Shown in pieces: positions 4,809 to 62,752 of a DNA stretch of 64,000 nucleotides (positions are counted from its first letter, which is position 1; every line of letters begins with the position of its first letter). The position numbers were made by a program, and so were the translations under genes. Source of the DNA: Ceratodon purpureus. Lineage: Eukaryota; Streptophyta; Bryopsida; Pseudoditrichales; Ditrichaceae. The notes beneath the pieces are model-generated. The model was not told the origin of the DNA, made no database searches, and saw only the letters and a list, made by a program, of their open reading frames with translations. The stretch is from the NCBI GenBank assembly GCA_014871385.1, contig CM026428.1:3517276-3581275 (forward strand). The letters run 5' to 3'.

Positions 4809-4859
4809 AGTGCGCGACCAATTGCAACCTTGAGCCTGGTGAGAGACGCCGGAGGGCGC

Positions 4860-35678: not shown

Positions 35679-36223
35679 ATTTTTATTTATTAATTTTTTT
35701 GAGAAAATGAATTTTTTTAGCGTTGTTTCAATTTGCGAGGGCACTTTTTGTGGACATGTGATTTGAGTATTATTAAGGCGCCTATAACTGTAGACTAAAT
35801 TGTAGAAGGGAATTTGTTCATGTGATACTTATTTCTGTCATCATGAACAATATTTATTTTTGCCCGCTGGTACATATTAAATAAGAGAACTTTAATCCAA
35901 TGGCAAGAAATTCTCTTCAAGTGAACAAGTTGTTTTCAAAATACCATATTTATTTATCTATTCGGATTCAAATACAAATAAAATCCAATACAAATGAAGT
36001 CTACTATGAGTCTATGACACATTGACAAATTAGAAAGCCCTGAAAATCAAAACCACTATCCAAAGCGGAAGGCTATGACTAAAGTTCTAAAGTGTTTCAG
36101 CAACTTTAGCCACCCCCAAGACACGCATAACTTCATTGTAGTTGAATTAGGGGCATGCATGAAAGTATCAACTTTATAATCCATTTTGCAGAAATAAATG
36201 AATATGTACTATACATGCTTGCA

Positions 36224-37100: not shown

Positions 37101-37110
37101 AGTTCACACC
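37101..37110. repeat. Target-site duplication, left (AGTTCACACC)
   Basis: An exact 10-bp match to 52830-52839, immediately outside the inverted ends. Eight to eleven base duplications are typical of MULE transposition. The duplicated bases belong to the older transposase gene that was hit. Confidence 0.9.
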
Positions 37111-37189
37111 GAGGGTAGCTTGTACGTGAGCGCAGAGCGCAGAGCGGAGAGCGGTGAGCGCAGATTTGGAGAGCGGAGAGCACAGAATG
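37111..37189. repeat. Left terminal inverted repeat of the 15.7-kb element
   Basis: After a less conserved 11-bp tip it reads GTACGTGAGCGCAGAGCG and then iterates GAGAGCGG/GTGAGCGC. It matches the right end with two mismatches over about 43 bp, and beyond that with one small indel. The repeated GAGCG units could be transposase-binding sites. Confidence 0.88.
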
Positions 37190-38095
37190 GGGGACAGAAC
37201 CTAAAAATAGCACTTTTTTTACTAAAAATAAATCATAAAATTAGAAGATTCGAATATTCTTAATTTATTTTTGGGAATTTACTAATTTTAGTAATTTAAT
37301 TGACCCTATAACCGTGGACTAATTACAGTATTTACATTGAATTTGTAGTTCGTTTTCTCTTTTCTTGGTGATTAATTTTTTAACGTGCACCAATTACTAT
37401 GCTCCAGCTCCTTCTTACTAGTTCAGGCATACAGTAATTCCCCTTATCTCCTTAAATTTATATGCAAATTACTACTTAAAATGTATTGGTATTGAACCTC
37501 TGAACAGGGATCAAGTAACATTTAATTTCGTAACATTTTCTTAACATTGGTAGAATTCATCCACCATAGTCTACACGCCTTTTTCCTTTTTTTTATTTTC
37601 TTTTAATTTTTTTGAAATTTGTCTTGTATTTTTTATAAAATTTTCTTTATTCTATCTATCCTGTTAGAGGGGTCAAAAGCCTCCTTTCATTTAATTCTCT
37701 CCTTCATTTTATTTTCACAATCATTTTATTTTCACATTCAATTTGTTAATCTTCTTCATATTATTTTCAACCTTCATTTTAAATATTGCTATTCTTTTCT
37801 TTAATCTTTTTAATTTCAATTTATATAAATGTTTTTTTTTTTCTTTTTTCTTTTTTCTTTTTTTTTTCATTCTTTAATTTAAAAAAATAAATTTAAATGC
37901 TAAATGACCTCTGCTAAACCTTCATCTTTTTCCATTCGGTTTAAGAGGATGACAACTTCTCAATGAATGAATAGCCGATTTTCAAGGGCGCCAAGCATCT
38001 TCTTCGCGGATATTTAAGATAAGAGTAGGGAATGTCTCTGCCTCTTTTGTGTTGGTGTTATGTGAAGCTCTTTTCCGTAGTGCGGGACAGCAGCT
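37190..38095. promoter_or_regulatory. Left non-coding flank of the element and promoter of the first ORF
   Basis: AT-rich DNA with long T and pyrimidine tracts (about 37580-37880) and no gene. A TATTTAAG at 38011-38018, about 80 bp before the ATG at 38096, is a possible TATA-like element. The same octamer sits about 70 bp before the ATG at 43090. Confidence 0.5.
37302..37318. repeat. Left subterminal motif GACCCTATAACCGTGGA
   Basis: An exact inverted match to 52711-52727, about 190 bp inside the left tip and 100 bp inside the right tip. A related motif lies near both ends of the older element (about 35784 and 58468). Conserved subterminal motifs often bind transposase; that function is inferred. 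Confidence 0.75.
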
Positions 38096-38548
38096 ATGGA
38101 AGACGTCAGAGATATTGTTGTTTCACTTGCTGACGATGTTTGTCCATTTCAACCATATGTTGAGGTGGAGGACGAAGAAGAGGTGATGGCCAACAGCCAA
38201 GGGCGTCCTTCGACAACGGATGTTGACGTCCAACCGGATGTAAGAGCTGACCCTCCACGTTCAGAAAATTCGGATGAAATCATAGTGCTAGAGAAGGACG
38301 CAGATGTGCCTTTGCAACCACATGCATACTCGAAGGTTGGAAAGATCCCAAGGGGAACCTATTCCAGGGAATCAGTTAATCGGAGGCGGGGAGGTGGGCC
38401 ATTGCTGAAACGATCATACCAAGGACATTTGCCAAGTGTGGGAACGAAAGTGAATGCGAATGTAGTTTCTCCTGTAGTACAGTCAGCGGCTGGCAGTCCT
38501 GCTGATAGTGTAGTGGGCAACCCTAAACGTGTTAGGTTCGAAGATTAG
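38096..38548 (+). CDS. Small acidic-to-basic protein of unknown function, transposon-encoded
   Basis: A single-exon ORF of 150 residues from a good ATG. The N-terminal third is acidic (VEVEDEEEV). The C-terminal half is Arg/Lys-containing (SVNRRRGGGPLLKRSY) and ends NPKRVRFED. No known domain is recognised and no membrane segment is seen. It lies just inside the left end of the element, convergent with the transposase gene, and is followed by AATAAA near 38578. A nuclear accessory role in transposition is possible, but only its location suggests this. Confidence 0.55.
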   Translation: MEDVRDIVVSLADDVCPFQPYVEVEDEEEVMANSQGRPSTTDVDVQPDVRADPPRSENSDEIIVLEKDADVPLQPHAYSKVGKIPRGTYSRESVNRRRGGGPLLKRSYQGHLPSVGTKVNANVVSPVVQSAAGSPADSVVGNPKRVRFED

Positions 38549-38802
38549 GACATCTAATAACAAGTATATGTTTGCCTTAATAAAGGGTACATGTCAGGGG
38601 ATACGAGGTATATAGTGCACTTCTTCAAGATACAATGTATTGAAATAGAATGCAATTAATGTGAACGACAAAGCCCTTAATATAATGAAAAAGTCAATAC
38701 AGCTTCTATATTGCTGACTTAGTACATGGGATATTACTAAAATCATTCACTACGTGACAAATGGCCATTGTGGAAATGGCAGTTCTAAAGTAGGAGGGCT
38801 AC

Positions 38803-41800
38803 CTACTTCTTCGCCAAGGGGTGACGCAAGATTCCACTCTCTAGGAGAAGCTTGACCTCGTTGAAGCTAAAGGTAGGCGCATGGATGAAAAGCTCCGCTT
38901 CGGGATCACGGTTGCAGACCTTCAAGAGTATGTAGTATAGGTGCTTACAATACGTGAACAGAGTCTTGCCACGGAACGTAGTCATCGTCTTCTTGAATGC
39001 TGGGCAAGTGCAACCAGGGTAAGAACTGATGGTAATCTGGTACCGTGTGATGTGTGGAGCGATGCCCGAATCCAGCCCAATGATGCAACCGTGGCCCGGC
39101 TCTGGTATCATGGTGACGGAACGGAGGCGCGCTTTAAGAGACTCGGAGGAGCCCATGGAGAGTCGCTGCGCTTGATTGGGACGAGTGGCAGTGCGCTTCA
39201 CCATCTTGCCGTCTCTCTTGCCTGGGTAGCGGTCAGCGTCTGCAGGGACTGGCAGCGAGCTAAGATTTGCAGGGGGCGGGGCAGAGGAGAAGAGGCGTCT
39301 TGGGGAGACAGGTTTCTTCTGCGGAAGTTGAAAGCCCGCTGCTTCGAGGGCAAGAATCTCAGTAAGTTTTAGGTTAGTACCTAGTTTCACTGGCCACACC
39401 TCTGGAATGGAGGGGAATTCCTGGTCCTTTGAGTAGTGTGCTACCCACTTGCGCTTAGAGCCTTTCACGCAACGCTCGATATCGTCGGAGCAGAACAAGA
39501 ACTCTGTCTTCTCCACTGTGTTCCGGCAATAGTTAGTCCAGAGCCCAGTGTAGGTCGGTGCAGCTGTGCAATGGGGCCCCCTGACGATTCTCTCAGTGCA
39601 CTTCTTCTTCGTTTCAGCTCTTTGGGCCCAGCAGCACTTCGCAGAAAGTTTGTGAAGTCTCGAAATGTGCCACTCCTTCACGTCCACCTTGGTTTCTTCA
39701 ACCGCGTTGACATGGCGAATGCCGCCCTTGTTCACAGGTGAAGGTAAAGGGGAATCAACTTCCTGGGCAGGAGGTTGGGTACATTGTACGTCGGTGTCGT
39801 GTTCGGAGTCGTCTTCCACAATGACGGGCATCTGCATAGGGCGAGCCCTGACGGCACGTCTTGGGCCTCTTGGGCGTGAGAAGTTGGTCTTATCCGGGCG
39901 ATGAGACTCTTCGTCAGCTCCGATAAGGACGTCGGCTTTTCGCTTCTGTGAACCGAAGACTTCCGCTCCTGGCATGATGGGCTGACGGGTGCAGAACTCA
40001 TCCGCGCCTGGCATATCGAGCATGGGCTTGTCGAGCAGTGTAGGATTTCCCCATTTCTTCGCGTTGCGTTCAGCCATGCGAAGCCTGAGTTCCTTCTTGG
40101 ATGGTCCTGTTCCGCCGACGTCACCTTTGAGGAACTGGTAGTAGTTGACAACCTGTAGAAAAGCCCGAACGAAATCGTCCACGGTAGCAACGTACAGGTC
40201 GTTCCCGTTGTTTCCTGAGGCTTGGAGCCACTTGTTATGAACTGTTTCGGCGAGGTTACAGGTGGGCATCTCTGTGAGTTCTTCCTTCGTGAATTTCTGC
40301 AGGTGTGACAGTAGGTGCCGTTAGATTCACGGATTACAGGTTTCTAGGTTAGGGCTAGGTAACCAGTATCAAAAACATGAAAACAGAGTGCAGAGATAAT
40401 ACCTCGGTCATGAATCCCCCCCACTGGCGGAAGCGGTGGTGCCAGAATGACAGCCACTGATCGAGTTTTATGAGCCCGCTCTCGCCAACGACCCCGGTGG
40501 ATGCCCACCATGCTCGCAACGCGTGGTACAGAGTTTCCGCCTCTGCCATGCTGGTCGCATTCTTGTACTGAGTGCACATCTTCTTGTGCTGTTCCCAGAG
40601 TTCTTCGGGGAAGTGCTTCTGCGTATACGCCACCATGTTCTGAGTCCAGTGGAACAAGCACGACCTCTCCCGGTCCTCCATTGGGTCCTCCTTGTTGCCA
40701 TTGCCGTAAAGGATTCGCACTGCATTCCAATTCGCCTGTGCGTTATCCGCCATGAACCCCTTGAAGTTCGGCGCTGCAACGCCATTGATCTCCATGACCA
40801 GGTTCAGGTTTTTCCAGAAGACGAGCTGGGCGTTCGTGTCCTCGGACTGCATGTCGCAAGTGGCGATTGTCATCACGCGGCAGTAGGTGGCGTCGTACAC
40901 ATGGCACGCCATGGTCGACCAGTCTTTGACGCGTTTGACATGGTCGAACATGATCCATGCGTTCTCCAAGTCGCCACCAGCTTGCATTCGGCTGACCAAG
41001 TCGACACCACTGCCCGGCCCGACCTCCGACATCTTGAAGACAAAGACTTTGTCACGCATAGATCCCTGACCAGGAAACCTATTCTCCTGGACATACGCCC
41101 AAAGACTGTTACCACGGAGCTTGGTGATACCGTCCATGATTCCGTACCTTTTGAATTTTTTGAAGGTGGCGACTTTGTTGCGGATGTTTGGTGACGCCAT
41201 GTCTTTGCATTGATCCAGAACAGGAACCAGCTCCTCCATCGTCAGCTTCCTCGGTGGTGCATCCTCGGGCTGTAGAAGGTAGCTCCCGATGAGGAGTTTG
41301 CTCGCCTCCAGGACAACGGCGCTCTTTGTTGCTTTGTTGTTCATCTCTACCTGCTCTTCTATTAAGCTACTAATCTCTGCTTTAGAGTCTCTATAGTCTC
41401 CTACTTTCACTGGATGATCATGTGTTCCTATGTGAATACAAGCTCTGGTCTGATTCGGTTTGCCCACAACGTAATAAATCTTAGCCTCGCATGTAGCTAC
41501 ACATGATGGAGGTTCTTTACATACCTTGCACACTAGCGTGGAGTCAGATGGCGGAGGCTGATCCATGAGAAAAGCTTGCAGGGTACAGCCTTCGAACTCA
41601 GTCTCGTTAACGTCGAAGATCTTGGGAAGACGCTTCAGAAAGTCACACTCCTCGTTGGTGCAGCGCAGCCATCCGACGCAGGTGGAACTACGAAAAGACA
41701 GTCCGAAGTCGTTTTTGATGTTTGTTGTGATGGTCTTGGTCCACAAGTGTCCGTCGTATCGTTTGTCCATTCCCTGCATTGACTTGGCGGCGACCTTAGA

Positions 41801-42484
41801 GGATCCTGTAGCAACCGGGGGCAACTCAAAAAGAACCGGACCATCAAACTTCGCAGGCAAGTACTCAACTCTCTCGTGTCTGATAGTGGAATAGTCTATC
41901 TTCTTCAAAATGTTTTTGGACCCACGCGTCTTAGCAATCTCTTTAAGGAGCGGAACAATGCTAACTATGACTGAGGACAATGGAGGAGACACATTGGAAG
42001 GAGGAGCATCTGCGTCGACCTTAGGCACCAACTTGACGGGACTGACTTCGTCATCAGAGGAGAGAGAAATGACTGTTGGAGGAGGAGGTTTCTCTACGTC
42101 TGAAGTTTCAGTACCAGGCTCGACTTTGACCTTGACATCACGAGGTAAGGGAGTCTGAATTGTGCAAGTAGAAGAGCGACGGGGGGTGAGGATCTCAGTG
42201 GATGCAGCCATCAGAGAATCAGTAAGACCATAGACTCTATAGGATCCAGGAAGGAGTCTCCACTGCAGCATATTGTTTTCATCTCTCACTGAAGGTTGCC
42301 CGAGGGTGTGGGTAACCTCGGCAGTAACGTCATCAAAGATCTCCTCCTCTATACTGATGGTATCTTCACGGAAGTGGAATCTGAGACTCAGGCGAAGAGA
42401 GGAGACTGTAGCTAGACCATCGTCATCTACGCGAAACCTAAGAGGGATGCCCATGCCTTGGGCGTACAGACAGACCATCCCCAT
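38803..42484 (-). CDS. MULE-type transposase with DDE core and SWIM zinc finger
   Basis: Two exons on the minus strand, 42484-40403 and 40296-38803, with GT-AG boundaries in phase 0, give 1191 residues from ATG (MGMVCLYAQG). The DDE-fold core of Mutator-like transposases is recognisable: first Asp in HVYDATYCR (about D531), second Asp in FMADNAQANWNAV (about D580), then the C-x2-H of CLFH (C609, H612). The C-terminal SWIM zinc finger has the full CxC...CxH set (C1123, C1125, C1144, H1146). A Cys-containing segment ahead of the core (LRCTNEECDF, CKVCKEPPSC) may bind zinc. The enzyme would cut and paste the element in the nucleus, recognising the GAGCG-rich ends. No frameshift or stop was seen, so it appears intact. 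Two older broken relatives flank the element. Confidence 0.88.
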
Positions 42485-43089
42485 GTTCGCAGGGAACTCA
42501 GTGATACTAGTGAAAGATGGGAGGAGAGTGAGAGAACTAGCGAAGCAGTATCGCGATTACAAAGTGAGAGGAATGATGCGTCGCTGTTGATCATTTTATT
42601 CTGGTTGGAACGCCCAGTAAACAGTTAGAGAATGATTCATTCTGTTAGGTAACGAATGTAAGATTTAAGAGAGACGGCGCCAACTAATTACAATGCCACT
42701 TTTTGCAGGTCTAAGTATATCAGGTCAAAAATTTTAGAACTGTTCTTCAACAATTTGAATCGTGAAGCGGATTCTATTTGTCATGATGTATTATAAGATT
42801 AGAATGAGCCGTCATTTAAATTCTACAATTATAACAATTAATATAAAAAGAAGCATGCATTGAAATGCTTGAATCAGATCTTTTAGATTATGGTATTCTT
42901 GGATTTATTCTTTTTAATCAAAGGTTCAAATTATTAACTTTACTTCCATTAAATGAAAGAGGGTAGAGAATGTGTCAGTTTTTAAATTTGTATATCAAAT
43001 TAGGGTTCTACGTGATAGGTATTTAAGGTGGGAGGAAAGTATGAAGAGAGTCTTTTTTGTGTGAGAGAGTCCTTCCTGGGGTTAGACAC
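42485..43089. promoter_or_regulatory. Divergent promoter region, transposase (minus) and small ORF (plus)
   Basis: A non-coding AT-rich interval separates two divergently transcribed genes. TATTTAAG at 43020-43027, on the plus side, mirrors the octamer upstream of the ORF at 38096, suggesting shared promoter design within the element. No clear TATA was assigned for the minus gene. Confidence 0.5.
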
Positions 43090-43566
43090 ATGAAGGAGAG
43101 TGGAGGGCCATCTCCCTCCACTTATGTCACTCCTAAACCTAGAAGAAAACCAGGTGGTACAGATTTCACGGATAGGAGAGCTAGAAAGAGGAGAGCATTA
43201 CGTAAGAAGGTAGTTTTTAAAGGTGACAATTTGAGTGCTCCTGTAAAAAGGAGAGGAGTCGGCCTGCCTGTAGCATTGAAGTTCTGTAGCATTCGCAAAC
43301 TCATTCTCGAGTCTATAGTGGAGGAGAAGGAAGAGATATTAGAGAACATCGTTGTTGAGCGTCAAGAGCACGAAGTGGAGGTACTCGTAAGTGGAGTTGC
43401 ACGTGAGGCCATGACGGATGAACTAGTTTTTAATTGTAGTCAGAGAGTAGAATCACCAGAGACTTCTATCAGATTCATTGACTCTTTGACAAGGGGCCCT
43501 AATTCTCAATCCGAGCATGACTTTAATTCTGTTGAAGTAAGTGTACCCAGAGAAAGTGTAATATGA
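43090..43566 (+). CDS. Small basic protein of unknown function, transposon-encoded
   Basis: A single-exon ORF of 158 residues from the first ATG (MKESGGPSP). The N-terminal half is strongly basic (KPRRKPGG, RRARKRRALRKKVVF), like a nuclear or DNA-binding region. The second half is acidic and probably helical (ESIVEEKEEILENIVVERQ), a possible short coiled coil. No family is recognised. It lies between the divergent transposase gene and the ParB/methyltransferase gene. Confidence 0.55.
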   Translation: MKESGGPSPSTYVTPKPRRKPGGTDFTDRRARKRRALRKKVVFKGDNLSAPVKRRGVGLPVALKFCSIRKLILESIVEEKEEILENIVVERQEHEVEVLVSGVAREAMTDELVFNCSQRVESPETSIRFIDSLTRGPNSQSEHDFNSVEVSVPRESVI

Positions 43567-43771
43567 ATCTCTTATGTACATGTGCAATTTGAATAAAAAT
43601 ATAGCATTTATTTTTTGCAAAACTAGGGTATGATTTAATCAAGTTTATTACATTTGACGGCCTTCAACTTATAATCCTTATTTTTTTCCTGATTTTACAA
43701 AGAGTAACAAGTGGATAAGGGAGGTGGGAGTTTCAACTCCACTCTCACTTGTTGGAGAGGGCACCGAGAGC

Positions 43772-46700
43772 ATGCGCTTGCGAGAAGTTGCGAGGAGAGC
43801 CAGGGAGGGGATATTGCAGGGTGGGGAAGGTGGGGTTGCGATGGCGGCCAAGGACTTGGAGCAGCAAGGGCGAGTCGAGGAGGACGGACAGGGAGATGGA
43901 GGAGAGGCCCAAGGCCTGGGAGAAGACGACCTGCGGATGGAGGAGCCCGAGCCTCAGCCTGAGCTCGGGGTTGGAGCTCCAGGCGGGAGCGACGGGAGCG
44001 AGGGCAGCGAGGAAGACGAAGAGGAGAATCCTCTCGAAAACGAGGAAGAGGAAGACCAGGTACCGCCCACCTCCTCCATCTTCATTCCGAGGACGATTGT
44101 TTAAATGATGGGTTTTTTGAATATTGGGTTGATTCTCTCGTACGGACTTCATCTCCATCATGAGTGCGTACGGCCAGGTTTGTGATTATGATTTTGTACA
44201 ATGTACTTGGATTTGAACATTATTGTGGTTTAAAATGATTCGGGTTGTGAGTTTGCATTTGGATTCGGGTTGTGAGTTTGCATTTGGATTCGGGTTGTGA
44301 GTTTGCATTTGGATTCGGGTTGTGAGTTTGAAATTGGATTTGGGTTGTGAGTTTGCATTTGGATTCGGGTTGTGAGTTTGCATTTGGATTCGGGTTGTGA
44401 GTTTGCATTTGGATTCGGGTTGTGAGTTTGCATTTGGATTCGGGTTGTGAGTTTGCATTTGGATTCGGGTTGTGAGTTTGCATTTGGATTCGGGTTGTGA
44501 GTTTGCATTTGGATTCGGGTTGTGAGTTTGCATTTGGATTCGGGTTGTGAGTTTGCATTTGGATTCGGGTTGTGGGCCTGTTGTTGGATACTTGGGCTTG
44601 GTTGTGAGCTTTGGTTATGTTGTTGGGTGCTTGGGATTTGTAGTTGATTACTGGTCCTAGTTTGGATTTGTTGAGGCTCCCCTCTGCTCGAACTCTTGCA
44701 GGCCGAGGAGGCTTATGCCTTCGAGGAAGCCTCGGTTTTGTATTAATGTCTTGATGCAGTTGATGTTTGAGCACTCGAGCCGAGGAGGCTTCGGCCTCCA
44801 ATGAGGCCTTGTGCATTTGTTGGATTTTTTCGCATTTTCTTTGTTTTATTTTTTTAATTTCTGAATTTTAAATTTTGCATTTGGGTAATGTTGATGCTTT
44901 GTTTTTTAAAAAAATAATGTTGAATGTTTTTTTTTTTAATTTTTGAAAAATAAAAAACCCGCCCACCTACTGTCGTCAACGACAGTAGGCCGGGAGGGTG
45001 CTGGTCCTTGTCGGATTTTTGTTTTTTTTTTAATTTTTTTTTTTGTTCATTGAGTAATTGAATAATTAGAAACGTATTAAATCTTAAAAATTTGATAAAT
45101 ATGTGTTCTTTGTTGATGATGGTATACGTATTTGAATGTTTTTTTTTTTAAATTTTGAAAAATTAAAAACCCGCCCACCTACTGTCGTCAACGACAGTAG
45201 GCCGGGAGGGTGCTGGTCCTTGTCGGATTTTTGTTTTTTTTTTATTTTTTTTTTTGTTCATTGAGTTATTGAATAATTAGAAACGTATTAAATCTTTAAA
45301 ATTTGATAAATATGTGTTCTTTGTTGATGATGGTATACGTATTTGAATGTTTTTTTTTTTAATTTTTGAAAAATAAAAAACCCGCCCACCTACTGTCGTC
45401 AACGACAGTAGGCCGGGAGGGTGCTGGTCCTTGTCGGATTTTTGTTTTTTTTTTAATTTTTTTTTTGTTCATTGAGTTATTGAATAATTAGAAACGTATT
45501 AAATCTTAAAGATTTGATAAATATGTGTTCTTTGTTGATGATGGTATACGTATTTGAATGTTTTTTTTTTTAATTTTTGAAAAATAAAAAACCCGCCCAC
45601 CTACTGTCGTCAACGACAGTAGGCCGGGAGGGTGCTGGTCCTTGTCGGATTTTTGTTTTTTTTTAATTTTTTTTTTGTTCATTGAGTTATTGAATAATTA
45701 GAAACGTATTAAATCTTTAAAATTTGATAAATATGTGTTCTTTGTTGATGATGGTATACGTATTTGAATGTTTTTTTTTTTTAATTTTTGAAAATTAAAA
45801 AACCCGCCCACCTACTGTCGTCAACGAGAGTAGGCCGGGAGGGTGCTGGTCTTTGTCGGATTTTTGTTTTTTTTTTAATTTTTTTTTTGTTCATTGAGTT
45901 ATTGAATAATTAGAAACGTATTAAATCTTAAAAATTTGATAAATATGTGTTCTTTGTTGATGATGGTATACGTATTTGAATGTTTTTTTTTTTAAATTTT
46001 TGAAAAATTAAAAACCCGCCCACCTACTGTCGTCAACGACAGTAGGCCGGGAGGGTGCTGGTCCTTGTCGGATTTTTGTTTTTTTTTTAATTTTTTTTTT
46101 TGTTCATTGAGTTATTGAATAATTAGAAACGTATTAAATCTTAAAGATTTGATAAATATGTGTTCTTTGTTGATGATGGTATATTTATTTGAATGTTAAG
46201 GTTGGGGAACCATTTGGGATTTCTGATAGTTGTTCCATTTTTTTCTTCTTTGATTTTTTGTGTTGATTGAAAGGGTTTTAATTTACGAAGTCTTAAAAAA
46301 AGTCTTATAAGTTGTTATGAGTTTTAAAGGTTTTCTAGGGAGCCTTCTCGTGGTTTTGGTTTGTATATTTAAAGTTCCTGTTCTTTCTGTTACTTACAAC
46401 ATTGTTTACAATTAAGGACTCTGATGGGGATCACATGGGGAGCGAACGTCAAGACCCTACGCCAGCAGAAACTGAGGTATTTCATTCAATCTACAATTTA
46501 TATTCTTTTTTTATGTTTATGATGTTGAGTTCTATTCGCCCTCTTCCCTTCTTTGTTTCCTACTCTTTTAATTAGGGCAGTTGATCATCTCTTCATTTCT
46601 CCTAATGTAGGTATCATCCGATGCTCCTGAGATGTCCGCTACTTCCCCCATTTCTGTCATCAATGTTTCCGATCTTTCGGATTCATTTGATCAGTACTAC

Positions 46701-47063
46701 TGTACCTGTGATGTAGCCAACCCTGTAGGTGTGGAAAGTGGACCTCTCGAGGTCCACTCTCCACAGTACATGCCTACCTCTCCAGTGTACATGCCTACCT
46801 CTCCAGTGTACATGCCTACATCCCCGGTGTATGAGCCTACCTCCCCGGGCTATATGCCCACGTCTCCTCCACAGGGCTCCCCGCCGATGTCTCCACCCTC
46901 TCCTTCCTCGCCGATTAGAGTCAGGAGGCCAGCCCATGTGGTCTTTGCTCTGCCGGCAATTCTGCCGTGCCCTGTCCAACAGACCAGGCGATTTTGGAGG
47001 AGGCGCCGTCACTGGAACTGTAGACAGTCTAAGGAGTACTATAGTCGATCCTCACGTAGATAG
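43772..47063 (+). CDS. Acidic plus Pol II CTD-like N-terminal exons of the ParB/methyltransferase gene (or a separate gene)
   Basis: Exons by eye: 43772-44059, 46417-46476 and 46611 onward, all in phase 0. The first encodes an acidic segment (EGSEEDEEENPLENEEEEDQ), the second DSDGDHMGSERQ. The third carries five heptads at 46767-46871 of the form YMPTSPV (three exact, then YEPTSPG and YMPTSPP), followed by Pro/Ser-rich sequence, then an Arg-rich stretch and a stop at 47063. The heptads resemble the YSPTSPS repeats of the RNA polymerase II largest subunit. The 2.36-kb first intron contains two tandem arrays. No clean in-phase donor links the third exon to the ParB exon at 47209, so whether this is one protein with it is unresolved. 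Confidence 0.5.
44242..44574 (+). repeat. 25-bp tandem repeat array, about 13 units
   Basis: Units of 25 bp contain GGGTTGTGAGTTTGCATTTG; thirteen nearly identical full copies plus a partial one occur. They lie within the presumed first intron of the ParB/methyltransferase gene. Because 25 is not a multiple of 3, every frame cycles through three phases, which creates long artificial minus-strand ORFs. Confidence 0.92.
44910..46195 (+). repeat. Six ~211-bp tandem repeats, each with a GC-rich palindrome
   Basis: Core starts (CCCGCCCACC) lie at about 44958, 45170, 45381, 45592, 45803 and 46015. Each unit has an AT-rich body with T and A tracts and a 10-bp perfect palindrome arm, CTACTGTCGT-CA-ACGACAGTAG; unit 5 has one mismatch in an arm. 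The units are highly similar, implying recent expansion or homogenisation. The array fills the presumed first intron of the ParB/methyltransferase gene. Confidence 0.92.
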
Positions 47064-47208
47064 TTTTATCAATCACAGATGATGATTGAGTTGTTAAAAG
47101 AGAGATGACAGTATGAAGATATATTGTTACTTTCTTTTACATACTTGTCTACTTTGCATGACTTTCTTCGATTGTGCTTGTTTTCCTAATTTGCGCACCC
47201 CCTCGCAG

Positions 47209-50200
47209 GTTACGCAAACACAAGATGTTTTGGTGAAACCATCTTGTCCGATAAACTTGATGACTGCTACAGAAGGGGAATTAGAACATCAGACCTTATA
47301 CAAGGTGGACTCCAACGCCGTCATCAACAAGCTCAGGATCAAGCCATCGCAGAAGTCCCGAATGTTGGTGCCCCTGTGTCGGATGATCCCAATGGCAAAG
47401 GTCAGACCAGTGGGCGAAGTGGGTGTGCAGCATTTGGAGCGGGAGTTCGTCAAGGGGTATAGAGATGGCGATCGCGTCATGTACATCTCCATGTACAACA
47501 ACGAAGAGCAGACAAGAGATGTTACGGATGAGGTCATGGCTAGATGGAGCCCATTATGGAGGGACGCGAATGATGCCTTCGAATTTCAGCTTCAATGTGA
47601 CGAGGACTGGTCTCAATTCTCGGGGAAGATGTTCTTTGTCTGGGAAGGTAACCATCGCCTCTCAGCATGGCTTCGTCATATCAACAAGCATCATGCAGAC
47701 GACCCGTCTTGGCACATCTCTGTGCACTGCATAGTACTCGACCCCCGTGGCCACGTTGGCAATCTTCTTCACGCAATGCACGACATCAACTGGTAAGTAC
47801 TTGTTTCTTTTCTCCTGTTTATCATTTGTTACTTTATCTCATCTCTTTTATTCATCATACGTTTTTTTGGTTTATTTTCAGGTCGACTGAGAATGACCAC
47901 GTCAAGAGTAATCTCCCTGCAAAACTATTTCGAATCCGCTCTTTCGGAATGATGAAGCTGGAGGAATTCAAAGACCTCCTCAGTCCTCAAGAGTATGAAG
48001 TCTGTTTGAAGAACAAGCCACCTAATCCCTCCTGGTTTCCCTTGACAACTAAAGTTTTCATCGCATTTTTGTACCGAGTAAGTCCTACATCATCTCTCTA
48101 TTTGCTTCTTATTATTCAATACTCATGGATTTTCCTAAGTCTGAATTCTCTTTCTCCAGCGGGAACTCGCAGCGGCCTCCGACGAAGCAGCCAATGCCTA
48201 CCGCATGAAGACACCTAAGGATGAGCAGTCTGCAAGTGCAGTTTGGGATGTCATGAATGAGGCATCAGAGAGAATGGTCGAAGCCATCAAGAAGAAGGAC
48301 TTCACCAAGTACTTGGCCATTGCAAATCCCAAGAATGGTGACGACTTCCTCAATGAGGTGACTCACTGATCATTGTTCAATTCGCTGTTTCGCATGACTT
48401 CAATAATTTCTGTATTTATCTTTCTCAAACTTCGGTAATTCTTGCAGATTAATCGCCATTTCAGTCTCAACAATAAGCCTGAGATGTCAGTGGATAAGCT
48501 TCAGAAGATTGTTCCTGCGGCCGTTGAGCCCAAATACAAGGCTCGTTGGTTGAAGTGGTGGAACTCATCTCCGAGTGCTCGAACGTCTTACAGATTTCTG
48601 CCATCTGAATTCAAAGACACCGACTTCGACCCATGGTTGAACAAAGCTTCATTCTGGGCTGGGGTAATTTTTATAAGAAATCCATTCCAATTCCTTGTTC
48701 CTTTATTTTTTTACCGTATTCCTTCTTCGTTGCTAATTATATCACTTTTGTATTACAGTTGGAGGAAGCCGTCATCCATGAAGTCGAGGACATATTCAAG
48801 ACGGAGAACCTCGATATAAATTGGATGGCATTTCCTGATGTCCAACAGCCGGGCGATTATGTGGAGAGTTCACGTATTCTCTTGTGGGACAAGGCCTTCC
48901 CTACGTTCATTGGAAAATCAGCAGATAAGCCCTTCGACAAGAAGTCCATTTTTTCTAAATTTCCTGGAACCGCCCAAGTTGTCAAGCGGGTTACTTACCG
49001 GTACGATACATTCCTCTTAATCAGATTCAAATTCCAGAACGAGGTCTCTTTATCTCTTTGATACTAACCTTCTACATATTGGTTTACATAGGTACTTCAA
49101 GCGAGAGCTTGTTCTGAAGGGGGTAATCAAGGTTCAGCAGTTCCCGAGCTACTTCCTTTCTTGGACGTCGAAAACCTCGGACCAGTGTATCTATTCTCCC
49201 CAACAGTTGAAAAGGTACAAAGCTCCTCACTTGCTTGAGGGATGCTGGTATCTTGATTGCTCTCGTGGTTTCACGATTGACTCAGAGGCGGACGTCAAGA
49301 CTCTACACGATGGGGGTGAGGTTGTGGCGGAGGACTCCGTGGATGATGCAGAAGGTCGTGAAGGAGAACAGGATCAGTCTTCTGCTCCACCACCGAAGAG
49401 AGGGAGAGGAAGGCGACTGAAATCTCTGCGTTCTCAGTCTGAGGCATCACAGCAAACTGGTGCAAACTCTTGCGCGCCAGCTGAGAAGGCACCAGAGCCC
49501 TCTCCGGGTATGATCGTTACCAACCCTTCTCCAGCTTCTTCGCCGGCTCCTTCATCGATCAGTGCTTCGGAGATTACCAGAGGTCTCCTTCAGCAGAGGA
49601 AGGCCAAACTATATCCTCAAACAACTTCTTCCGCTGGAGCTTCGATTTCCACACATGTTTCCGTCTTCAACTCATCTGTGGATTCCCTGTTGCGGCGAAA
49701 TAGGAGACAGGAGAGAAAAGGTGGCGACCCGGATTGGATCAAGATTCAAGACTTCATTCGCAAGGTATGTTCTTATATTTTGACATTTCATGGATTCAGC
49801 CACCTCTACTCGCTTTGTAGTTACTAACTCTCCTTTCTTGTTTCCTGCAGTTTGGAGCAGGCCGCGAAAACGAAGTTCCGGACCGGTGCAAACAAGAGGA
49901 CCATCTGGGAGTCGACTTGATCATTGCCGACATCCCTGAGAATCTTCCCGTCCCTTCCGTTTCCGTTCCCCCCACGAGTATTCCGCCTTGGAACTCTCGC
50001 TACAAGGATTATTTGTACGACATCTTCCATTTTGCAGATGAATTCCTGCAGAAAGATGGTGCCATCTGCCTCATCTACAACACTGATCAGAAGCTGGCTA
50101 AGGATATCGAGGAAGAAGCTGCTGCTGGTGGATACGTGCTGTTCAAGGACTGGTGGGGTGTCAATGTACTCGGCCTGACTTCTCCTACGAACCCCGAGAA

Positions 50201-51167
50201 CTTGGTACTTTTCCTAAACATGCCCTTCTCTTCGCTTACTGATAACCCCTCCGCTTCATTTTACTCACTAGTTTTGCTTGATTGCAGACTATGCGATTCT
50301 GGATTCGCGTCTACGTTCGTAGTGGCAGTACTTTCTCCTTCGAGACGAAGAAGGAAGACCTAATACATGGGCTCCTCAACATTACCGAGAGTGATGCCAT
50401 TTTCAACTTGACCAATGTGGATTCGCAGCTCATGAATGGGGAGGTGCCGTGGAGAGGCCCAAGGGAGAAATCCATCGAGATGATGCAGGGCATACTTGAG
50501 GAGCTGTCGAAGCCCGGCGACATAGTTGTTGATTGGAATGCTGGGACAGGTAACTATTCATGCATATCTTTGCTGAATTATTCTTCTCGTTTTTACCACA
50601 GTTTCTCATTTCTTTGTATCTCTCCGAGTTTCAGGAGCCTCCATCAAGGCTGCCCAGGCTATTGGTCGCCACATTCTCGCTTTTGAGGAGGACGAAGCCA
50701 TATTCAACGCCCTTCTCAAACCATCCGCCATGGGTCCTCCTAAACATCCAAGGCCGGCAGCAGCAGGCGAAGCGCCTCCAAAGAGAGCAAGAACTGACAA
50801 GTGGTGTAAGTCTTCTATTCTTTGTTTATATTATCCAATCATTACTGCTCTTTCTAGCTCTACGGACTCTATCTAACCACAGTCGGTTCTCTATTGCAGA
50901 GTAGTTTCCGCAACACCGCCACGTGGGCCAAGAGCAGTGTCCACTCCATCGTGGCGTCTTCATTCCAGCCCGATTCAGCCTTTCATACTTCCGGACTACG
51001 CAGAGGACTTAGCACAGGCGTTTCAATCTGGAGCCCTTACATATGTTCCTAGTCGGCCAACTACTTTTGATCCCAGGGCCCTTCTATTCGTCGATGACGA
51101 GGCGGTAGAAGGAGATTCAGAGTCATCTAGTTCTGAGAGTGGAAGTAGCGATTTTAGCATGTTGTGA
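47209..51167 (+). CDS. ParB-like domain fused to an N4/N6-type DNA methyltransferase-like domain, transposon-encoded
   Basis: Exons by eye: 47209-47792, 47882-48077, 48160-48357, 48448-48663, 48759-49000, 49092-49764, 49851-50204, 50288-50549, 50635-50805 and about 50902-51167, phase-consistent for 1053 residues. The first exon has a ParB/Srx-type pattern: IPMAKVRPVGEVGVQHLERE and, about 95 residues later, FFVWEGNHRLSAW with the ParB-box Arg (codons at 47647-47658). A charged, Ser/Pro-rich linker follows. The C-terminal half resembles a beta-class amino-methyltransferase: DLIIADIPEN in the DPPY position (49917-49943), GPREKSIEMMQGIL in the HPTQKP position, then KPGDIVVDWNAGTGASIKAA as the SAM-binding motif. 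DPPY is altered to DIPE, so catalysis is doubtful although SAM binding may persist. The last acceptor is uncertain: the best-looking AG gives an immediate stop. Confidence 0.7.
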
Positions 51168-51687
51168 GTTTGAAGGAGGCTTCGGTCTTTCATTGTTTTC
51201 ATTGGATTTGATTTGATTTAATTGGAGTTCATTGCGTAATCCTTCCTCTACTCTACTACCCTGATTCCTGAATCTATACTTGTTACGATTCTCATTTCCA
51301 AATCGTCTCCTCCTATATTGAGGATGAATTGTCACAACCGTAATGCTCAAAATATAATATGAAGAATGAAATGTTACAAAAGAAATGCTCAAAATTTAAA
51401 TTGCGCTGTAACTTATATTTTAACCATTCAAAATCCCACATGTCCTAACCATGTTACCTATTCTTGAGTTGGTGTACATCTTGGTTTCTTCTACTCCATT
51501 ATTCTACACGAACTCTGAAATATTCCACGAACTTTGAAGACCATCTCTTTTAGTTGGTTTCGAGTTCTCTTATTCCTAGAATCATCTATATTATCTAAAA
51601 CCATCATGGTGGAATACTCGTATCTAGATCCAATGAGGGACCACATCTAAAGTAATGTATTCGAACACCCCACTAGACTTCACAGTA
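51168..51687. other. Convergent intergenic spacer inside the element
   Basis: AT-rich sequence between the stops of the methyltransferase gene and the minus-strand ORF. It presumably holds the 3' ends of both transcripts. An AGGAGGCTTCGG motif at about 51174 also occurs near 44783 in the first intron. No gene seen. Confidence 0.5.
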
Positions 51688-52287
51688 CTAATCCTTCGGA
51701 GGATATACAGTCCAACTCTTGTCGATATCAAACCAGCAAGTTTCGCCATCCGATATGATCACTTCGGGCAGCTGAACAAGTGGATTCTCATCGACGTTCG
51801 ATAGCAAGGGATACGGGATTAGAGACAACTCCATAATACGGAGAAGCTCATTGGTACAAAGCACTGTCCAACGCCATTCACCTTCACCAACATGTAGGCT
51901 TCCGATGTGCCTAAACGGTGGCAAGTCCATGCCTCGTTCTCTAGCGCGCTCCACCTCCAACAGCCACGGCCGCAGCTCCTCATAACTCGCCGGTGCCTTT
52001 GGGGGCAAACCTACAGCCGCTCTCGTCCTCCTGGATCTCGCATTACACACCTTCGGCATCGCGCAACACACTGAATTCTTGTAGTCTTCAAACGTTACAG
52101 TCAAGCTTGTAGATTGACATCCCCGAACTCCTACGCTACCTTCGCATACAGCACAGAATGCCAAGGACTGTGTCACTATCCTAATAGGCCACCTAGAGAC
52201 AAGCTCAAGAAACCAAGAGTGACCTCCTTCCCTGGAACCCAGCTTACCAAGTGCTGTTTGATGATGAAACTCTCCTACTTGTATCAC
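51688..52287 (-). CDS. Cys-containing protein of unknown function, transposon-encoded
   Basis: The minus-strand frame is open for 199 codons. The first codon of the open stretch is GTG, so the real start is either an internal ATG (MPKVCNARS, about residue 77) or an upstream exon joined at an acceptor-like TTCATTTCAG next to 52290. Clustered cysteines (FCAVCEG, VCCAMPKVC) could bind zinc. The C-terminal part contains a Trp-rich segment (WRWTVLCTNELLRIMELSL). No family is recognised. It lies near the right end of the element, convergent with the methyltransferase gene. Confidence 0.5.
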   Translation of the reverse strand: MIQVGEFHHQTALGKLGSREGGHSWFLELVSRWPIRIVTQSLAFCAVCEGSVGVRGCQSTSLTVTFEDYKNSVCCAMPKVCNARSRRTRAAVGLPPKAPASYEELRPWLLEVERARERGMDLPPFRHIGSLHVGEGEWRWTVLCTNELLRIMELSLIPYPLLSNVDENPLVQLPEVIISDGETCWFDIDKSWTVYPPKD

Positions 52288-52758
52288 TGAAATGAAGATG
52301 CTTCGCTGCCTAGGAAGAGAGAGTAATCTTCGATGAAGACAAGGACTCTGACAAGGTATATCTTGGTTTCAGCAGTCAAGATATTATACACGAATTTTGA
52401 AATATTCTAGGAAATTTTCAAACCTTGCCTCCTTTATGTTCTGTGATATTTGTTGTTTTCCTTGTGCATTTACATAATCCCATGAAAGAATTATTTGTTT
52501 GATCTAAAACTGAACGCCTGATCATTATATCTTGCCTAAACCCATGACAAATCTAAAGGAATGTATGCATGACGTCATCATGACATCAGCCCTAATTTGT
52601 ATCTTTGAGAACAAACGTAATAAATTCTTACCAGAGATAACCCTAATTTCCACGGTAATATACTCTTTTCCTAAAAAAAGTGTCAAAATTAAGCCTTAAT
52701 TTAGTAATTTTCCACGGTTATAGGGTCTACTTTGCTTTTGAAAATTTTCCTAATTGTC

Positions 52759-52829
52759 AATTCTGTGCTCTCCATTCTGCGCTCACCGCTCTCCGCTCTA
52801 CGCTCTCCGCTCACGTACGAACTTTCCCC
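52759..52829. repeat. Right terminal inverted repeat of the 15.7-kb element
   Basis: Read inward it is a G-rich tip, then GTACGTGAGCGGAGAGCG and further GAGCG iterations, matching the left end. It is followed directly by the second copy of AGTTCACACC. Confidence 0.88.
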
Positions 52830-52839
52830 AGTTCACACC
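52830..52839. repeat. Target-site duplication, right (AGTTCACACC)
   Basis: Exact partner of 37101-37110. The older transposase frame resumes immediately after it. Confidence 0.9.
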
Positions 52840-54868
52840 CTCAGCTATCAACTTTGGGTCTCATGAATGTTGTGTGTGACATAAACGGAGCTCAACCTTG
52901 TTAGGTCCCTTTCCTCTCTTCCCTCCCTTTAACATGAAACGATAACTTGTAATCTGCATGAAGGCACAAACGAGATCGTCCATTGTAACTTTGTACAAAC
53001 ACAACATTGTATTGCCGCGCAGTTGAAGCTAATGGTTGTCAACAGTTTTGGCAAGATTGCAGGATGGCATGCCCACTCTCTCGTTAAGAGTGAGGTTCTG
53101 AATAAATTACATGTAATGGTTTAGGATTGATATTAAAATATGTGAATATAATTAAAATGAAAATTACTTGCGATGAGAAATTGAGGTAAGACTTCCAGCT
53201 GTATAAAAAGTTCCATTGTCTATATCGGAAGTCCTAAAAAGTCATCGAGTCATTCAACATTCCTCTTCCATCTTTGGTTGTGACTTTGGATGAAAGCCAC
53301 CAAGCACAAATGACGTTATATTGCGCGTCCGCTTTTTCTTGAGTCTTTGCATCCTTCTAGACCTTGCACAGAGCAATGTATCGATTTTGGAATCATGGCA
53401 CGATGTTCCTCAAGGTCGCTCTCTACAGGCACTTGGTCCATTGAAACAAACATGTACGCTCACGTTCCTCCATGCATACGTAGCCTGGGTCCCCACTGCC
53501 ATATACTTTGCGGACATCGTGCTAATTGGCTCTAGCACCGTAAGCCATAAGTCCCTTGAAATTTGAATCCTCTTCTCCATTTTGAGCGTAACTTTGTTCA
53601 GTTGGAGCCAAAAAAACTCATACGCTCTTGCATCCTCAAATTGCATGTCTCAAAGCACAATGGTCATTACCTTGCAGTAATCCTTGTCGTATATATGACA
53701 GGCCTTGGTTGTCGAATTCGAAACAAGCTTCACATGTGACATGGTCGAATATGATCCAATAGTCCTGAAGATTGCCACAATTTTGCATGCTCCTACTAAG
53801 TCCACACCACTCCTTGGACAATCAACTGACATCTTGACGACGAATACCTTACCATTGTCTTCTCTCAAAAATTAATTACGGTAGATGAACTTGAATTTGG
53901 AATAGTCCTTCAGTTCCATGATGTTGTCTATTATACCACGTCCTTGATGGAAGAGTCTCTTTGTGTCTGAGACAAAGTTTCATAAGTTGGGTGAAGTAAG
54001 AATCTTGAATTGGTCCATGACAACATCCATAGACGCTCCCCGCATATGGCTTCTTCCAGGAGTTGCTAGGTGCTATGATGATAGCTGAATTCTTTGCTTT
54101 GACGTCTTCTGAACCTCCTTAGCTACGAAGTCATATAGAAATTTGAAAGGTACATTGGAATACTGGATGACTGTGACGGCCTTAGTGAATGGCAGCACGA
54201 GTGACCTCACCATTGGATGATGGTACGTGATAGATTCTAGCATGACATAGTGCTAAGCAAATAGGAGGGTTCTAACAAACCTTGCATGCTAGCATCAATT
54301 TCTCGGTAGGCCTACCTCCAACGGGAAAGAGTATCAAAACTACTCCAGACCACTGAGTGCTTTTGACCTTCCTATTGTTCTTGCAGATGCAGTCACAACT
54401 ATTTTTTAGGCATTCCAAGTGACCAGTATATGTTGACTTATAATATGTTAGAATATACTTGTTCTTCATATTTGTTATCATCGTCTTGCACCAAATGTGG
54501 TCGTCGTAATGTTTACTTATGCCATCCATACCAACTCTAAATGGTTTTAGAATGCGTTCAAGGTCGAGAGGCAATTCAAATATATTATCACCGTTGTAAG
54601 TCGCCGGTAAGTACTTTACATGTCAATATTCAATACTTTCAAAGTCAATGCTAGCAAAATGAGAACAAAAGCTTCTTCTACAAGCAGTCATTCTAATGGC
54701 AAATAAGATACTACGATTCTTTTTAGAATCAGAGTAAATAGGAGGACGATCAAAAGAGACAGATGATGAGGCACTAGACGTCCTTTTGTGCCTGGTAGGA
54801 CGTGCGGATCCGAAAACGCGTTGGAACTGAAACGGTTGACTTGAACCAATGACCAAAACAACTCCCAT
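52840..54868 (-). pseudogene. Decayed MULE transposase, N-terminal and core part
   Basis: Minus-strand fragments align with the intact transposase. KTMITNMKNKYILTYYKST corresponds to the segment KTITTNIKNDFGLSFRSST. VFVVKMSVDCPRSGVDLV corresponds to VFVFKMSEVGPGSGVDLV. CHIYDKDYCKVMTI corresponds to CHVYDATYCRVMTI and keeps the first catalytic Asp. The exon 2 start (acceptor near 53100, then GMPSCNLAKTV) matches the position of the intact intron. Frameshifts and stops disable it. With 36224-37100 it makes one gene, interrupted by the younger element. Confidence 0.82.
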
Positions 54869-60248: not shown

Positions 60249-62515
60249 CTCTATCCAGGTCTCAGAAGCATTTTATAGAAATTATTTGATTTAATATGGC
60301 CTACTAAATTCTAAATGACATTAATATCATGTAGTTTTTCTTCAAAGGTTACCTTGTATCTTTAAGTCGTGCAATTATAAACAATAAGTGGCTATCAATT
60401 ATTACTAATCTTATTCTTAGTTGTTTTTTGTTACTGTAGTATCCATCTTTGAAAGAGGAGAGTATTTAAATGTCTCATTGTCCCCCTGTCCAGTGGGCAC
60501 TGGGTCATTGGCATTACAACCAAACACTTTATTCACGCCGGCCTTGCTAAAGGGTTGGTGTTTCTATCTATCTATCTACCTAGCTATCTTCTAGAACCCT
60601 TGGATACATTGTTCAAAACTTAAATGTCTAATGAAATGTGCCTTCCAAAACTTTAACTTTATTTGAAATAGGGAGTTGTGATGCATCAAACTTAGAAACC
60701 ATTTGTATGTTTGAGCAGGTTGAAAAATGACAGATCCTGAATAGTGTCGTATCCCATTTTGGGAGCATTAACTAGACCCTTAGAGGTTATGTTAATCCCA
60801 AGTTACTGCTGTTGAAATACAAATTTTGTAAACCTACTTTCAACATTATTGAATCATGCACTATCATGTCCTAGCCTTCTACACAAGCCATCACACAAAA
60901 AGTGATTTTACAGAGCTGAATTTACGCTACTAGTGGAGGACCATGGATCTGCCTTTGCTGCATAATGTGGAGATGGGATATTACCTGGGTTCTAAGATGG
61001 TGAGTGAACACTGCGATATTTAGGCAATGAACAGACTGGTTCTCCTCCCTACCTCCAACTGGTTCCAAGTTCTAACTTCTAACTTAGTCCCAGTGGTAAC
61101 CAAGTTATTTTCTGCATCAAGGCTCTCTCAAATTTCTTGAGCTGCACTTCAAATTTCAATCTCTCTTCAATGTTGATTCTTGCCATAGCCCAATGGCCAA
61201 CCAATATCTTGATATTCTCACCTGGATCCACCTTGACCTACCTTGAAGTCCAGAGCAGATCACAAGAACAAAACTTGGCCAGTGGTTGTGCCTGATTCCT
61301 GAAGATTTGTGACTCCACCAAGGAATCACCTGGATTTATATGGTCATGCACTTAAGCCCTTACAGCTTCACAGCTGAAGTTGGTGCCTCAAAATCTTACA
61401 CCTGTAGCCTTCTGAATTCTTACCTATCGCAACAATTACTGGAATTTACAGTAAGTGGATAGAGTTTCAGTATCCATTGAGCTCATTGTTCATGATGCTT
61501 GCTGCACTTTTGAATCCCACCTCTAAGGCAGACTTCAGATTTGAATGCCACTTCTCCACAGCTGTTATCACCAAAGGCTGCTTGTTTTCATTCCTGAATT
61601 AACTCTTGGGCAACTCAATGATGCTAAGTAGAATTCAGCATTGGTTATTTGATGATGTGTCATTAGAATGAAGCTTGTCAAGCACTTATTAAGTTTTAAC
61701 CCCACACCATAATTACTTCCCTAATGCACTTGAGCTGTTATCATAAGGACTTCACTGGGAAGAAATTAGAATTATGATCTCACCTCAGGGCCGGCTACTC
61801 ACATCTCACTTGCAACCCAAATTCCCACCTATCACAAATTACGCAGAATACCAAGGCTCAATCACGGTGACTCGCACCTCAAGGCACATTCCCCAACTCA
61901 TTTCCAAATTACTCTTGGAACATCAGTAAACCCCTCTGGATCTCCCATTGTGAAAACCCATCACCATTGGTCCGCTCCCAACTCTATCAGCTCATGTAGC
62001 CTCAACCCCCAACAAATAGCCCCACCAACAAACCAAGTAGCCCAACACTTTAACCCCTCCAGAGCCCTCAGAACCACCCCAGGGCAGCTGCAACATTAGA
62101 ATCGGGGGGAAAAAAAAAGAAAAAAGAAAAACACCACCATTGACCAAACCAGTAACTTGGCACCACCTGTCAATCAGACAAACAAACCACCCTCGGGCCT
62201 CGGGCAGCTTCAGAAATAAAAACAAAGATGATTCACGAAAAAGCCTTGCCATCCGACAAACCACCAATGGATGAAACAAATGCAAAAATCACCCTGAATA
62301 AAAAGATGGACAAGGAAATAAGATGATGACAAACGAAGTTGCTCAACTCATTTGACTCGTTAAAATGAAATTAAAATGAAAATGAAAACGAAAATATTGA
62401 AAATGAGAAACGAAACCGGATCAGCAAAGGCATTGGACTCGTTGGACTCCGGGCGAGGGAGCAGGCGAGGGCGATTAGTGGGGACCAGCGAGAAAAGCGT
62501 AAGCTAATTAGTGAA
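60249..62515. promoter_or_regulatory. Second copy of the BELL upstream region
   Basis: 60720-61065 is diverged from 990-1100 and 2604-2825. From about 61074 the sequence is nearly identical to 3130 onward. It lacks MITE A1 and a ~300-bp segment present in the left copy. No gene is seen in it. Confidence 0.6.
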
Positions 62516-62642
62516 GTGACGCGGTACGTAAGACGGCCTCATGCAATGGCATTCTCTGTAATGACGGGCAGGCTCGGCCCCCTCCCCGCGGGCAGACGCA
62601 AGCGAAAGAGATCCATTCACACGGCGACAGAGGGGCTCGCCG

Positions 62643-62644
<2 letters not shown>

Positions 62645-62677
<33 letters not shown>

Positions 62678-62684
62678 CGAGGGC

Positions 62685-62715
<31 letters not shown>

Positions 62716-62752
62716 AGGGAAAGAGAAGGGGGAGAGAGAGAGAGGGCGAGTG
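62645..62752 (+). repeat. (GA)n-rich microsatellite, second copy
   Basis: Homologous to 4709-4808 with different GA run lengths and interruptions. Confidence 0.8.

Follow-up and report, generated by a model that had tools for sequence, protein, structure and literature searches.

What could a protein that joins a ParB-like region to a DNA methyltransferase domain do for a plant transposon? The question is raised by a 64,000-nt stretch of the genome of the moss Ceratodon purpureus (assembly GCA_014871385.1, contig CM026428.1, positions 3,517,276–3,581,275, forward strand), here called the window, whose own coordinates are used below. It contains a mobile element (37111–52829, 15,719 bp), and inside the latter lies an intron-containing cargo gene (47209–51167). 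Most likely, with a probability of about one half as estimated from the sequence, the accessory protein encoded by this gene would recognise its own element via palindromes, with anti-silencing as the effect.

The cargo gene

Removal of nine GT-AG introns, 82–96 bases each, joins ten exons of the forward strand into a stop-free frame of 1053 codons; the alternative frames of the same exons contain 32 and 54 stops. The intron-containing gene proposed here in the original prediction is borne out by this frame. The product is read as a putative accessory protein of at least 1053 residues, in which a ParB-like region at the N terminus and a middle region precede a beta-class N6/N4 DNA methyltransferase domain.

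The protein was compared with relatives from the same genome (362,488,568 bases in 151 contigs, one of them 110.5 Mb). A search with PF01555 (N6_N4_Mtase), in which the best 150 of 773 candidates were scored, yielded at least 32 places; rows 2–11 of the list, each fetched with 20 kb, are the ten diverged copies considered below, and the top place, L003, was left out. Similarly, the best 150 of 1901 candidates were scored for exon 1, the window's own exon among them. The alignments A2, A3, A4 and A5 hold 7 (two partial), 5, 4 (one truncated) and 5 rows, respectively, among 11 members. The parts of the gene are as follows.

47209–47792, forward strand: exon 1, ParB-like region
47882–49764, forward strand: exons 2–6 (47882–48077, 48160–48357, 48448–48663, 48759–49000, 49092–49764), middle region, colinear with the aligned diverged copies
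49851–50204, forward strand: exon 7, methyltransferase domain (first half), with the motif IV-like IADIPENL
50288–50805, forward strand: exons 8–9 (50288–50549, 50635–50805), with the motif X-like RGPREKS and the motif I-like DWNAGTGAS
50902–51167, forward strand: last exon and stop, with VDDEAVE close to the end
46611–47060, forward strand: open frame with YMPTSPV heptads, possible 5' exon (PF05001, E 8.7e-4)

The C-terminal VDDEAVE resembles VDSEAVE of some diverged copies. Position 47209 is directly 3' of an acceptor site, and a start codon is not established there. Exons further upstream (about 43066–47035) may belong to the gene; they are joined to it solely by an ab initio gene-finder model that includes doubtful tiny exons. 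The YMPTSPV repeats (46757–46843) resemble the C-terminal heptad of RNA polymerase II, and the PF05001 match of this open frame, 19.9 bits, is just below the cut-off of 20.3.

Palindromes as candidate binding sites

The region upstream of the ParB-like exon contains two sets of tandem repeats.

44920–46197, unstranded: 211-bp tandem repeat, six units, candidate binding array with one 24-bp palindrome per unit
44237–44574, unstranded: 13.5 copies of a 25-bp unit in tandem (98%), next to the palindrome array

The 24-bp palindrome, CCTACTGTCGT-CA-ACGACAGTAGG, is exact in five units (44966, 45178, 45389, 45600 and 46023) and present as a variant at 45811. Genome-wide, CCTACTGTCGT-NN-ACGACAGTAGG has 1802 exact sites, and its reversed control has 0. 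For each palindrome 50 distinct sites were listed, and statements about positions cover those 50. The listed sites of the window type, all on contig C1, form four complete arrays of 20, 8, 8 and 13 exact units plus one site of a fifth array. Each array is upstream of a ParB-like exon, and the four complete ones, as well as the window array, end 1.05–1.16 kb before it.

The diverged copies carry palindromes of another type. There are 6–21 TTCNGTNCNGAA-type sites per copy versus 0–0.3 in random sequences (20 order-1 random sequences per copy); the 24-bp window palindrome is not among the palindromes listed for these ten copies. Outside the coding mask lie 134 of the 136 sites, about 44 being expected inside, with the proviso that the copies are related and not independent; the two sites inside the mask, both in c9, are covered by nothing but a gene-finder exon that lacks homology. 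The GTTCNGTACNGAAC palindrome has 354 genome sites versus 31 for its reversed control, and 23 of the 50 listed are at most 25 kb from a PF01555 place, where about 0.3 would be expected. Neighbouring sites of the diverged copies are often 42 or 63–65 bases apart, that is, at multiples of two helical turns. The 10.5 bp periodicity of the spacings yields a Rayleigh p of about 3e-7 (ten periods tried; 32 spacings from five copies), the spacings being mutually dependent because of tandem duplication. The motif also occurs 13 times in the parts of the fetched copies that lie beyond 17.5 kb, 25 kb in all; the outer ends of these copies were looked for and not found.

Chance palindromes are rejected by the random-sequence and reversed controls. 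The suggestion that the protein binds repeats of the element thus gains a concrete candidate form, since the palindromes are strongly over-represented in and beside these genes.

The methyltransferase domain

The C-terminal part of the window protein (residues 879–934) matches PF01555 with 33.9 bits, the cut-off being 26.7 (E 9e-7 for the whole protein, 4e-8 for the domain). The same match is seen in all four relatives scanned, hence in five of five with the window protein counted. The motifs follow in the order IV, X, I, as in beta-class enzymes: IADIPENL (49923–49946), the HPTQKP-like RGPREKS (50453–50473) and the motif I-like VVDWNAGTGASI (50525–50645), which spans an intron. Both the motif order and the beta-class N4/N6 assignment had been claimed from the letters of the window, and both agree with the profile match and the positions found.

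In the single-sequence search, the closest solved structures are DpnA, CcrM and RsrI (E 0.004 to 0.2), and the DpnA alignment takes in motif IV too (VDLIIADIPENLPV versus VDAIITDPPYNISV). The five-member family profile gives E 4e-7 against DpnA and E 1.3e-7 against the methyltransferase part of prokaryotic ParB-methylases; phage methyltransferase families match as well (best E 3e-10). Judged from these similarities, the membership in the beta-class methyltransferase fold stands.

Catalysis has to be considered separately. The catalytic consensus of beta-class N6/N4 enzymes is (D/N/S)PP(Y/F/W) and FxGxG, with the aromatic residue of motif IV as the stacking partner of the target base. This consensus is found neither in the window subfamily nor in the ten diverged copies. 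Motif IV of the diverged copies is DQPF (8/10) or DTPF (2/10), and that of the window subfamily is a noncanonical ADIPEN in ten sequences out of eleven and ADILEN in the remaining one. Motif I reads D(L/V/F)(S/N)ASTGA(S/L) in the diverged copies and DWNAGTGAS in 7/11 sequences of the window subfamily, being further altered in the other four; neither group has the usual FxGxG. GPHEKS is retained in all ten diverged copies. Catalysis is doubtful because motif I lacks FxGxG in both groups and motif IV lacks the aromatic residue in the window subfamily. In the latter, catalysis has likely been lost, and binding is favoured over methylation since motif IV is altered (DIPE, not DQPF), which weakens for this subfamily the earlier idea that the element marks its own DNA. 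The DQPF and DTPF subfamilies may be catalytic, with methylation of element DNA as the predicted outcome.

The place left out of the comparison, L003 (G000:C8:9595672-9596436), is the best PF01555 place; it covers profile positions 2–218 with one internal TGA, and open frames of more than 120 codons, looked for on one strand only, were not seen there. Two other PF01555 places, C1:5958254 and C5:15306119, have open frames of 567 and 569 codons covering profile positions 29–190 and 29–187, and are perhaps host methyltransferases.

The ParB-like N-terminal region

The ParB box has the consensus (D/E)GxHR. A box of this type is present in the window protein, where GNHRLSAW is confirmed at 47647–47670, and in its relatives: (D/E)GNHRL is seen in all 11 sequences of the diverged-copy alignment and in 10 out of 11 sequences of the window-subfamily alignment, the exception being KGNHRL in C6c. 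The single-sequence structure model of exon 1 has a pLDDT (predicted local distance difference test) of 44, too low to use. A ParB fold of this region is plausible; the assignment is based on the GNHR motif, and the best argument for it is the analogy with a published algal protein considered below.

Copies and selection

In all ten diverged copies, the three parts of the cargo gene (ParB-like, middle and methyltransferase) are encoded on the strand opposite to that of the transposase. Hence the genome-wide check suggested in the original prediction finds the cargo gene and the transposase together in 10/10 copies. The ParB-like part of the window protein shows 38–42% identity to nine of them and matches the tenth (c6) in two pieces, at 37% and 40%; three copies, of which one is truncated, were aligned over the whole protein and are colinear with it at about 31–33% identity. 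All of the best 150 exon-1 matches have 87–100% identity, 137 being stop-free and 13 containing a stop.

The ratio of nonsynonymous to synonymous substitution rates (dN/dS) is 0.04–0.16 for the ParB-like exon in diverged-copy pairs with measurable dS and 0 to 0.39 for the methyltransferase exons in diverged-copy pairs. When the window copy is compared with three distant members of its subfamily, the ParB-like exon yields 0.11–0.12, and two pairs among these three copies yield 0.22–0.28. In near-identical copies the ratio rests on few changes and scatters from 0.14 to 1.74, with two values undefined. As read from these ratios, the cargo gene is mostly under purifying selection.

The mobile element

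The features of the element outside the cargo gene are listed here.

37101–37110, forward strand: left target-site duplication, AGTTCACACC, 10 bp, direct
37111–37164, forward strand: left terminal inverted repeat, identical to the right end at 47 of 54 bases and containing GAGCGGA-type sub-repeats
38806–40320, reverse strand: second large open frame of the transposase, delimited by stops, with CxC...CxH close to the end
40358–42556, reverse strand: first large open frame of the transposase, delimited by stops
51691–52368, reverse strand: open frame of 226 codons in the interval that separates the cargo gene from the right end
52776–52829, reverse strand: right terminal inverted repeat
52830–52839, forward strand: right target-site duplication, AGTTCACACC, 10 bp, direct

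A DDE-type core in 40358–42556 and a SWIM-like CxC...CxH in 38806–40320 were recognised by eye and are presumably those of a transposase; the transposase frames have no significant Pfam match, the MULE transposase domain included (MULE, Mutator-like element). Nine copies were examined for their ends. Both ends were located in eight, the window included, and all eight have a perfect 10-bp duplication; in the seven other than the window each duplication is different. In the ninth, C1:10928523, the left end was found, whereas the stretches fetched do not contain the right end; a core of the terminal inverted repeat (TIR) is present farther out, 29.2 kb from the left one, so that this copy may have received an insertion. 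The 35-base TIR core occurs 347 + 350 times in the genome, the reversed control 0 times. The 100 places listed, on which the pair counts rest, include 34 pairs of adjacent, inverted cores no more than 30 kb apart, of which 26 are spaced 14–19 kb; seven of the 34 contain a scored ParB-like place. At the computed exon-1 position of five sampled pairs, the ParB-like exon was found in two, the 211-bp array in one and nothing in two, and in the latter two the other sampled spot matched the element. Terminal repeats of the diverged copies were not found in the five of ten tried.

Mutator-like elements produce target duplications of 8–11 bp, according to the available part of PMC6446971. The 10-bp duplications and terminal inverted repeats observed here conform to this, and the element is read as a recently mobile, Mutator-like transposon; the MULE label is given because of the duplication length, the ends and the DDE- and SWIM-like motifs seen by eye. 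Thus, from the description of the locus as a MULE with an intact transposase, the MULE part is supported by the inverted ends and the 10-bp duplication, whereas the transposase lacks a significant Pfam match. A position of the cargo gene outside the element is rejected, the gene being within the element in independent copies; the flank junction was also examined.

The flanks contain a degenerate older transposase relative (36104–36948 and 52882–54712), split by the insertion: when the flanks are joined, the alignment to it becomes continuous, hence the element was inserted into that relic. The copy at C8:4624168 sits inside another element copy, since its flanks read as window 46970–47011; this copy (C8:4624168-4624749) is inserted in the YMPTSPV region, a case of self-nesting. 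Elsewhere in the window, a direct duplication (3137–6037 and 61073–64000, 98.7% identity) carries the start of a BELL-like homeobox gene, whose POX and Homeobox_KN matches are both below the cut-offs; related tandem arrays are situated to the left of this duplication.

Comparison with known systems

The closest described case is Sola1-1_Ec32 of the brown alga Ectocarpus. The available part of PMC12477816 reports its 1104-residue accessory protein with a ParB-like and an N4/N6 methyltransferase domain, likens it to transposon proteins of green and red algae, and proposes that accessory proteins of this kind bind the transposon encoding them and modify it. As far as that part goes, the two cases share similar protein size (1104 versus at least 1053 residues), a ParB-like region (in the moss protein a candidate one) plus an N4/N6 methyltransferase domain, the location on the strand opposite to the transposase and a giant DNA transposon. 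They differ in that the algal element is a Sola1 transposon of a brown alga and the one considered here is MULE-like, with 10-bp duplications, in a land plant; the likeness is by description only. Beyond what is available on Sola1-1_Ec32, there are here at least 150 exon-1 matches at 87–100% identity, plus palindrome arrays. Measured against such accessory proteins, the moss protein shows the methyltransferase, the element and the opposite-strand layout, and a putative ParB half marked by the GNHR motif.

According to the available part of PMC5735166, VANC21, encoded by an extra gene of an Arabidopsis VANDAL MULE, binds a short motif and brings about a loss of DNA methylation; copies of this motif have accumulated in the non-coding DNA of the VANC21-encoding element, its tandem repeats and introns included. 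The moss element likewise has an extra gene and motifs, here candidate sites, in its own non-coding parts. Unlike the moss protein, whose binding and anti-silencing are predicted, VANC is described there with no mention of a ParB or methyltransferase domain.

The prokaryotic ParB-methyltransferase fusions (Wolbachia phage WO, L001) have the same order, ParB followed by an N6/N4 methyltransferase that matches the family profile (E as given above); they differ in their length of about 400 residues, the canonical DPPY and a ParB part without a match to the moss protein. In plasmid partition, exemplified by ParB/parS and SopB/sopC, a palindrome array is located beside the ParB gene. The candidate sites of the moss element similarly adjoin a ParB-like gene; in contrast to plasmids, no ParA-like gene is among the Pfam matches of the frames scanned in the element.

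Proposed mechanism and alternatives

The preferred reading is that the accessory protein would recognise palindromes in the non-coding DNA of its own element and thereby act on its own family, either opening the element or shielding it from silencing, in the manner of VANC and VANDAL. In the DQPF and DTPF subfamilies, it may additionally methylate the palindrome-bearing DNA; in the DIPE window subfamily, the methyltransferase fold would more probably serve binding or assembly than catalysis. A more tentative version is that a plant transposon adopted a ParB/parS-like nucleoprotein system, which would load at palindrome arrays (the largest listed candidate loading site has 20 exact units in one copy), spread and mark the element as self, the protein and the palindrome diverging together.

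Several observations weigh against self-recognition via palindromes. An exact array is missing at one of the six ParB-like places located on C1 below 18.46 Mb. Of the 21 ParB-like places scored on C1 and in the part of C2 that was scanned, only seven are inside a pair of exact TIR cores, a test that needs the exact core at both ends and uses the best 150 of 1901 candidates. The palindromes differ between subfamilies, the window copy having zero TTCNGTNCNGAA-type sites, and 27 of the 50 listed GTTCNGTACNGAAC sites are not within 25 kb of any of the at least 32 PF01555 places. Instead of the accessory protein, it could be the transposase or a host factor that binds the palindromes. The methyltransferase part is less constrained, with dN/dS of 0.42–0.43 between the window copy and the three distant copies of its subfamily, and 0.55–0.58 in two pairs among the latter. 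The ParB fold has no profile match in Pfam, PHROGs, NCBIfam, PADLOC or sequences of the Protein Data Bank (PDB), and no match is obtained when A2 is compared by hhalign with a narrow profile built from 30 prokaryotic ParB-methylases. A lone match to DndB, which we take to be a member of the ParB superfamily, has E 0.011 in one of seven sequences, and unrelated families score similarly in comparable scans (PtuB, E 0.0058; SatS, E 0.015).

From the ParB-like protein of the original prediction, the box thus remains, whereas profile searches and the exon-1 model provide no ParB fold. An unlikely, though the least unlikely, rival makes use of this absence: the N-terminal region would be some other fold with a chance GNHR, and the protein a different DNA binder with a methyltransferase fold. 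The conservation of (D/E)GNHRL in both alignments speaks against chance, as does the placement of GNHR ahead of the methyltransferase, the same as in the published algal protein (PMC12477816, as far as available). It is rather doubtful that the protein and palindromes serve synapsis, integration or copy control, and not silencing, as a transposition helper similar to mudrB would. Second genes of MULEs are known, mudrB being apparently needed for integration (available part of PMC6446971), the window array is between two divergent genes, and sites of the diverged copies are also beside and within the transposase gene; on the other hand, the sites are spread over introns and inner non-coding DNA and not concentrated at the ends, those of the diverged copies not having been found.

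Active epigenetic self-marking, in which adenine (N6) or cytosine (N4) methylation would protect or activate the element, is improbable. It is consistent with PF01555 in all five members scanned, with DQPF or DTPF and GPHEKS in the diverged copies, and with the proposal in print for algal relatives (PMC12477816, in its available part), but the altered motif I of both groups and the ADIPEN or ADILEN of the window subfamily speak against it. A captured passenger gene, similar to those of Pack-MULEs and without function for the element, is very improbable. Capture of gene fragments is frequent in MULEs (available part of PMC6431247), but the cargo is present in all ten diverged copies, remains colinear at about 31–33% identity in the three aligned (one truncated), has low dN/dS and is open in most scored exon-1 matches. 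A random passenger is rejected, given the layout kept in all ten diverged copies and the low dN/dS.

Novelty and significance

Protein-database searches with the window protein and alignment A4 gave no match; distant relatives were possibly missed, because only about 8000 candidates of similar length, the best by shared words, were scored. Searches of viral contigs and phage DNA led nowhere. A MULE survey lists other cargo, and the available main text has no ParB, methylase or methyltransferase (PMC6446971); the available part of a review of giant transposons has no ParB (PMC6431247). In the open-licence literature, no land-plant transposon with ParB-methyltransferase cargo was found, in accordance with the original remark that no described plant MULE with such cargo was known, to which the published algal Sola1 counterpart has to be added (PMC12477816, available part). 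Transposon proteins with these two domains are of a known kind, since the brown-algal case is in print there and green and red algal ones are cited. Within the reach of this literature, three features are new so far: the host is a land plant, the element is MULE-like, and palindromes are present.

Hence C. purpureus provides a high-copy land-plant case with open frames and candidate target sites that differ between subfamilies. As these subfamilies have different palindromes, binding, co-evolution and any methyl mark become directly testable, and so does the notion that a transposon may mark its own DNA or shield it.

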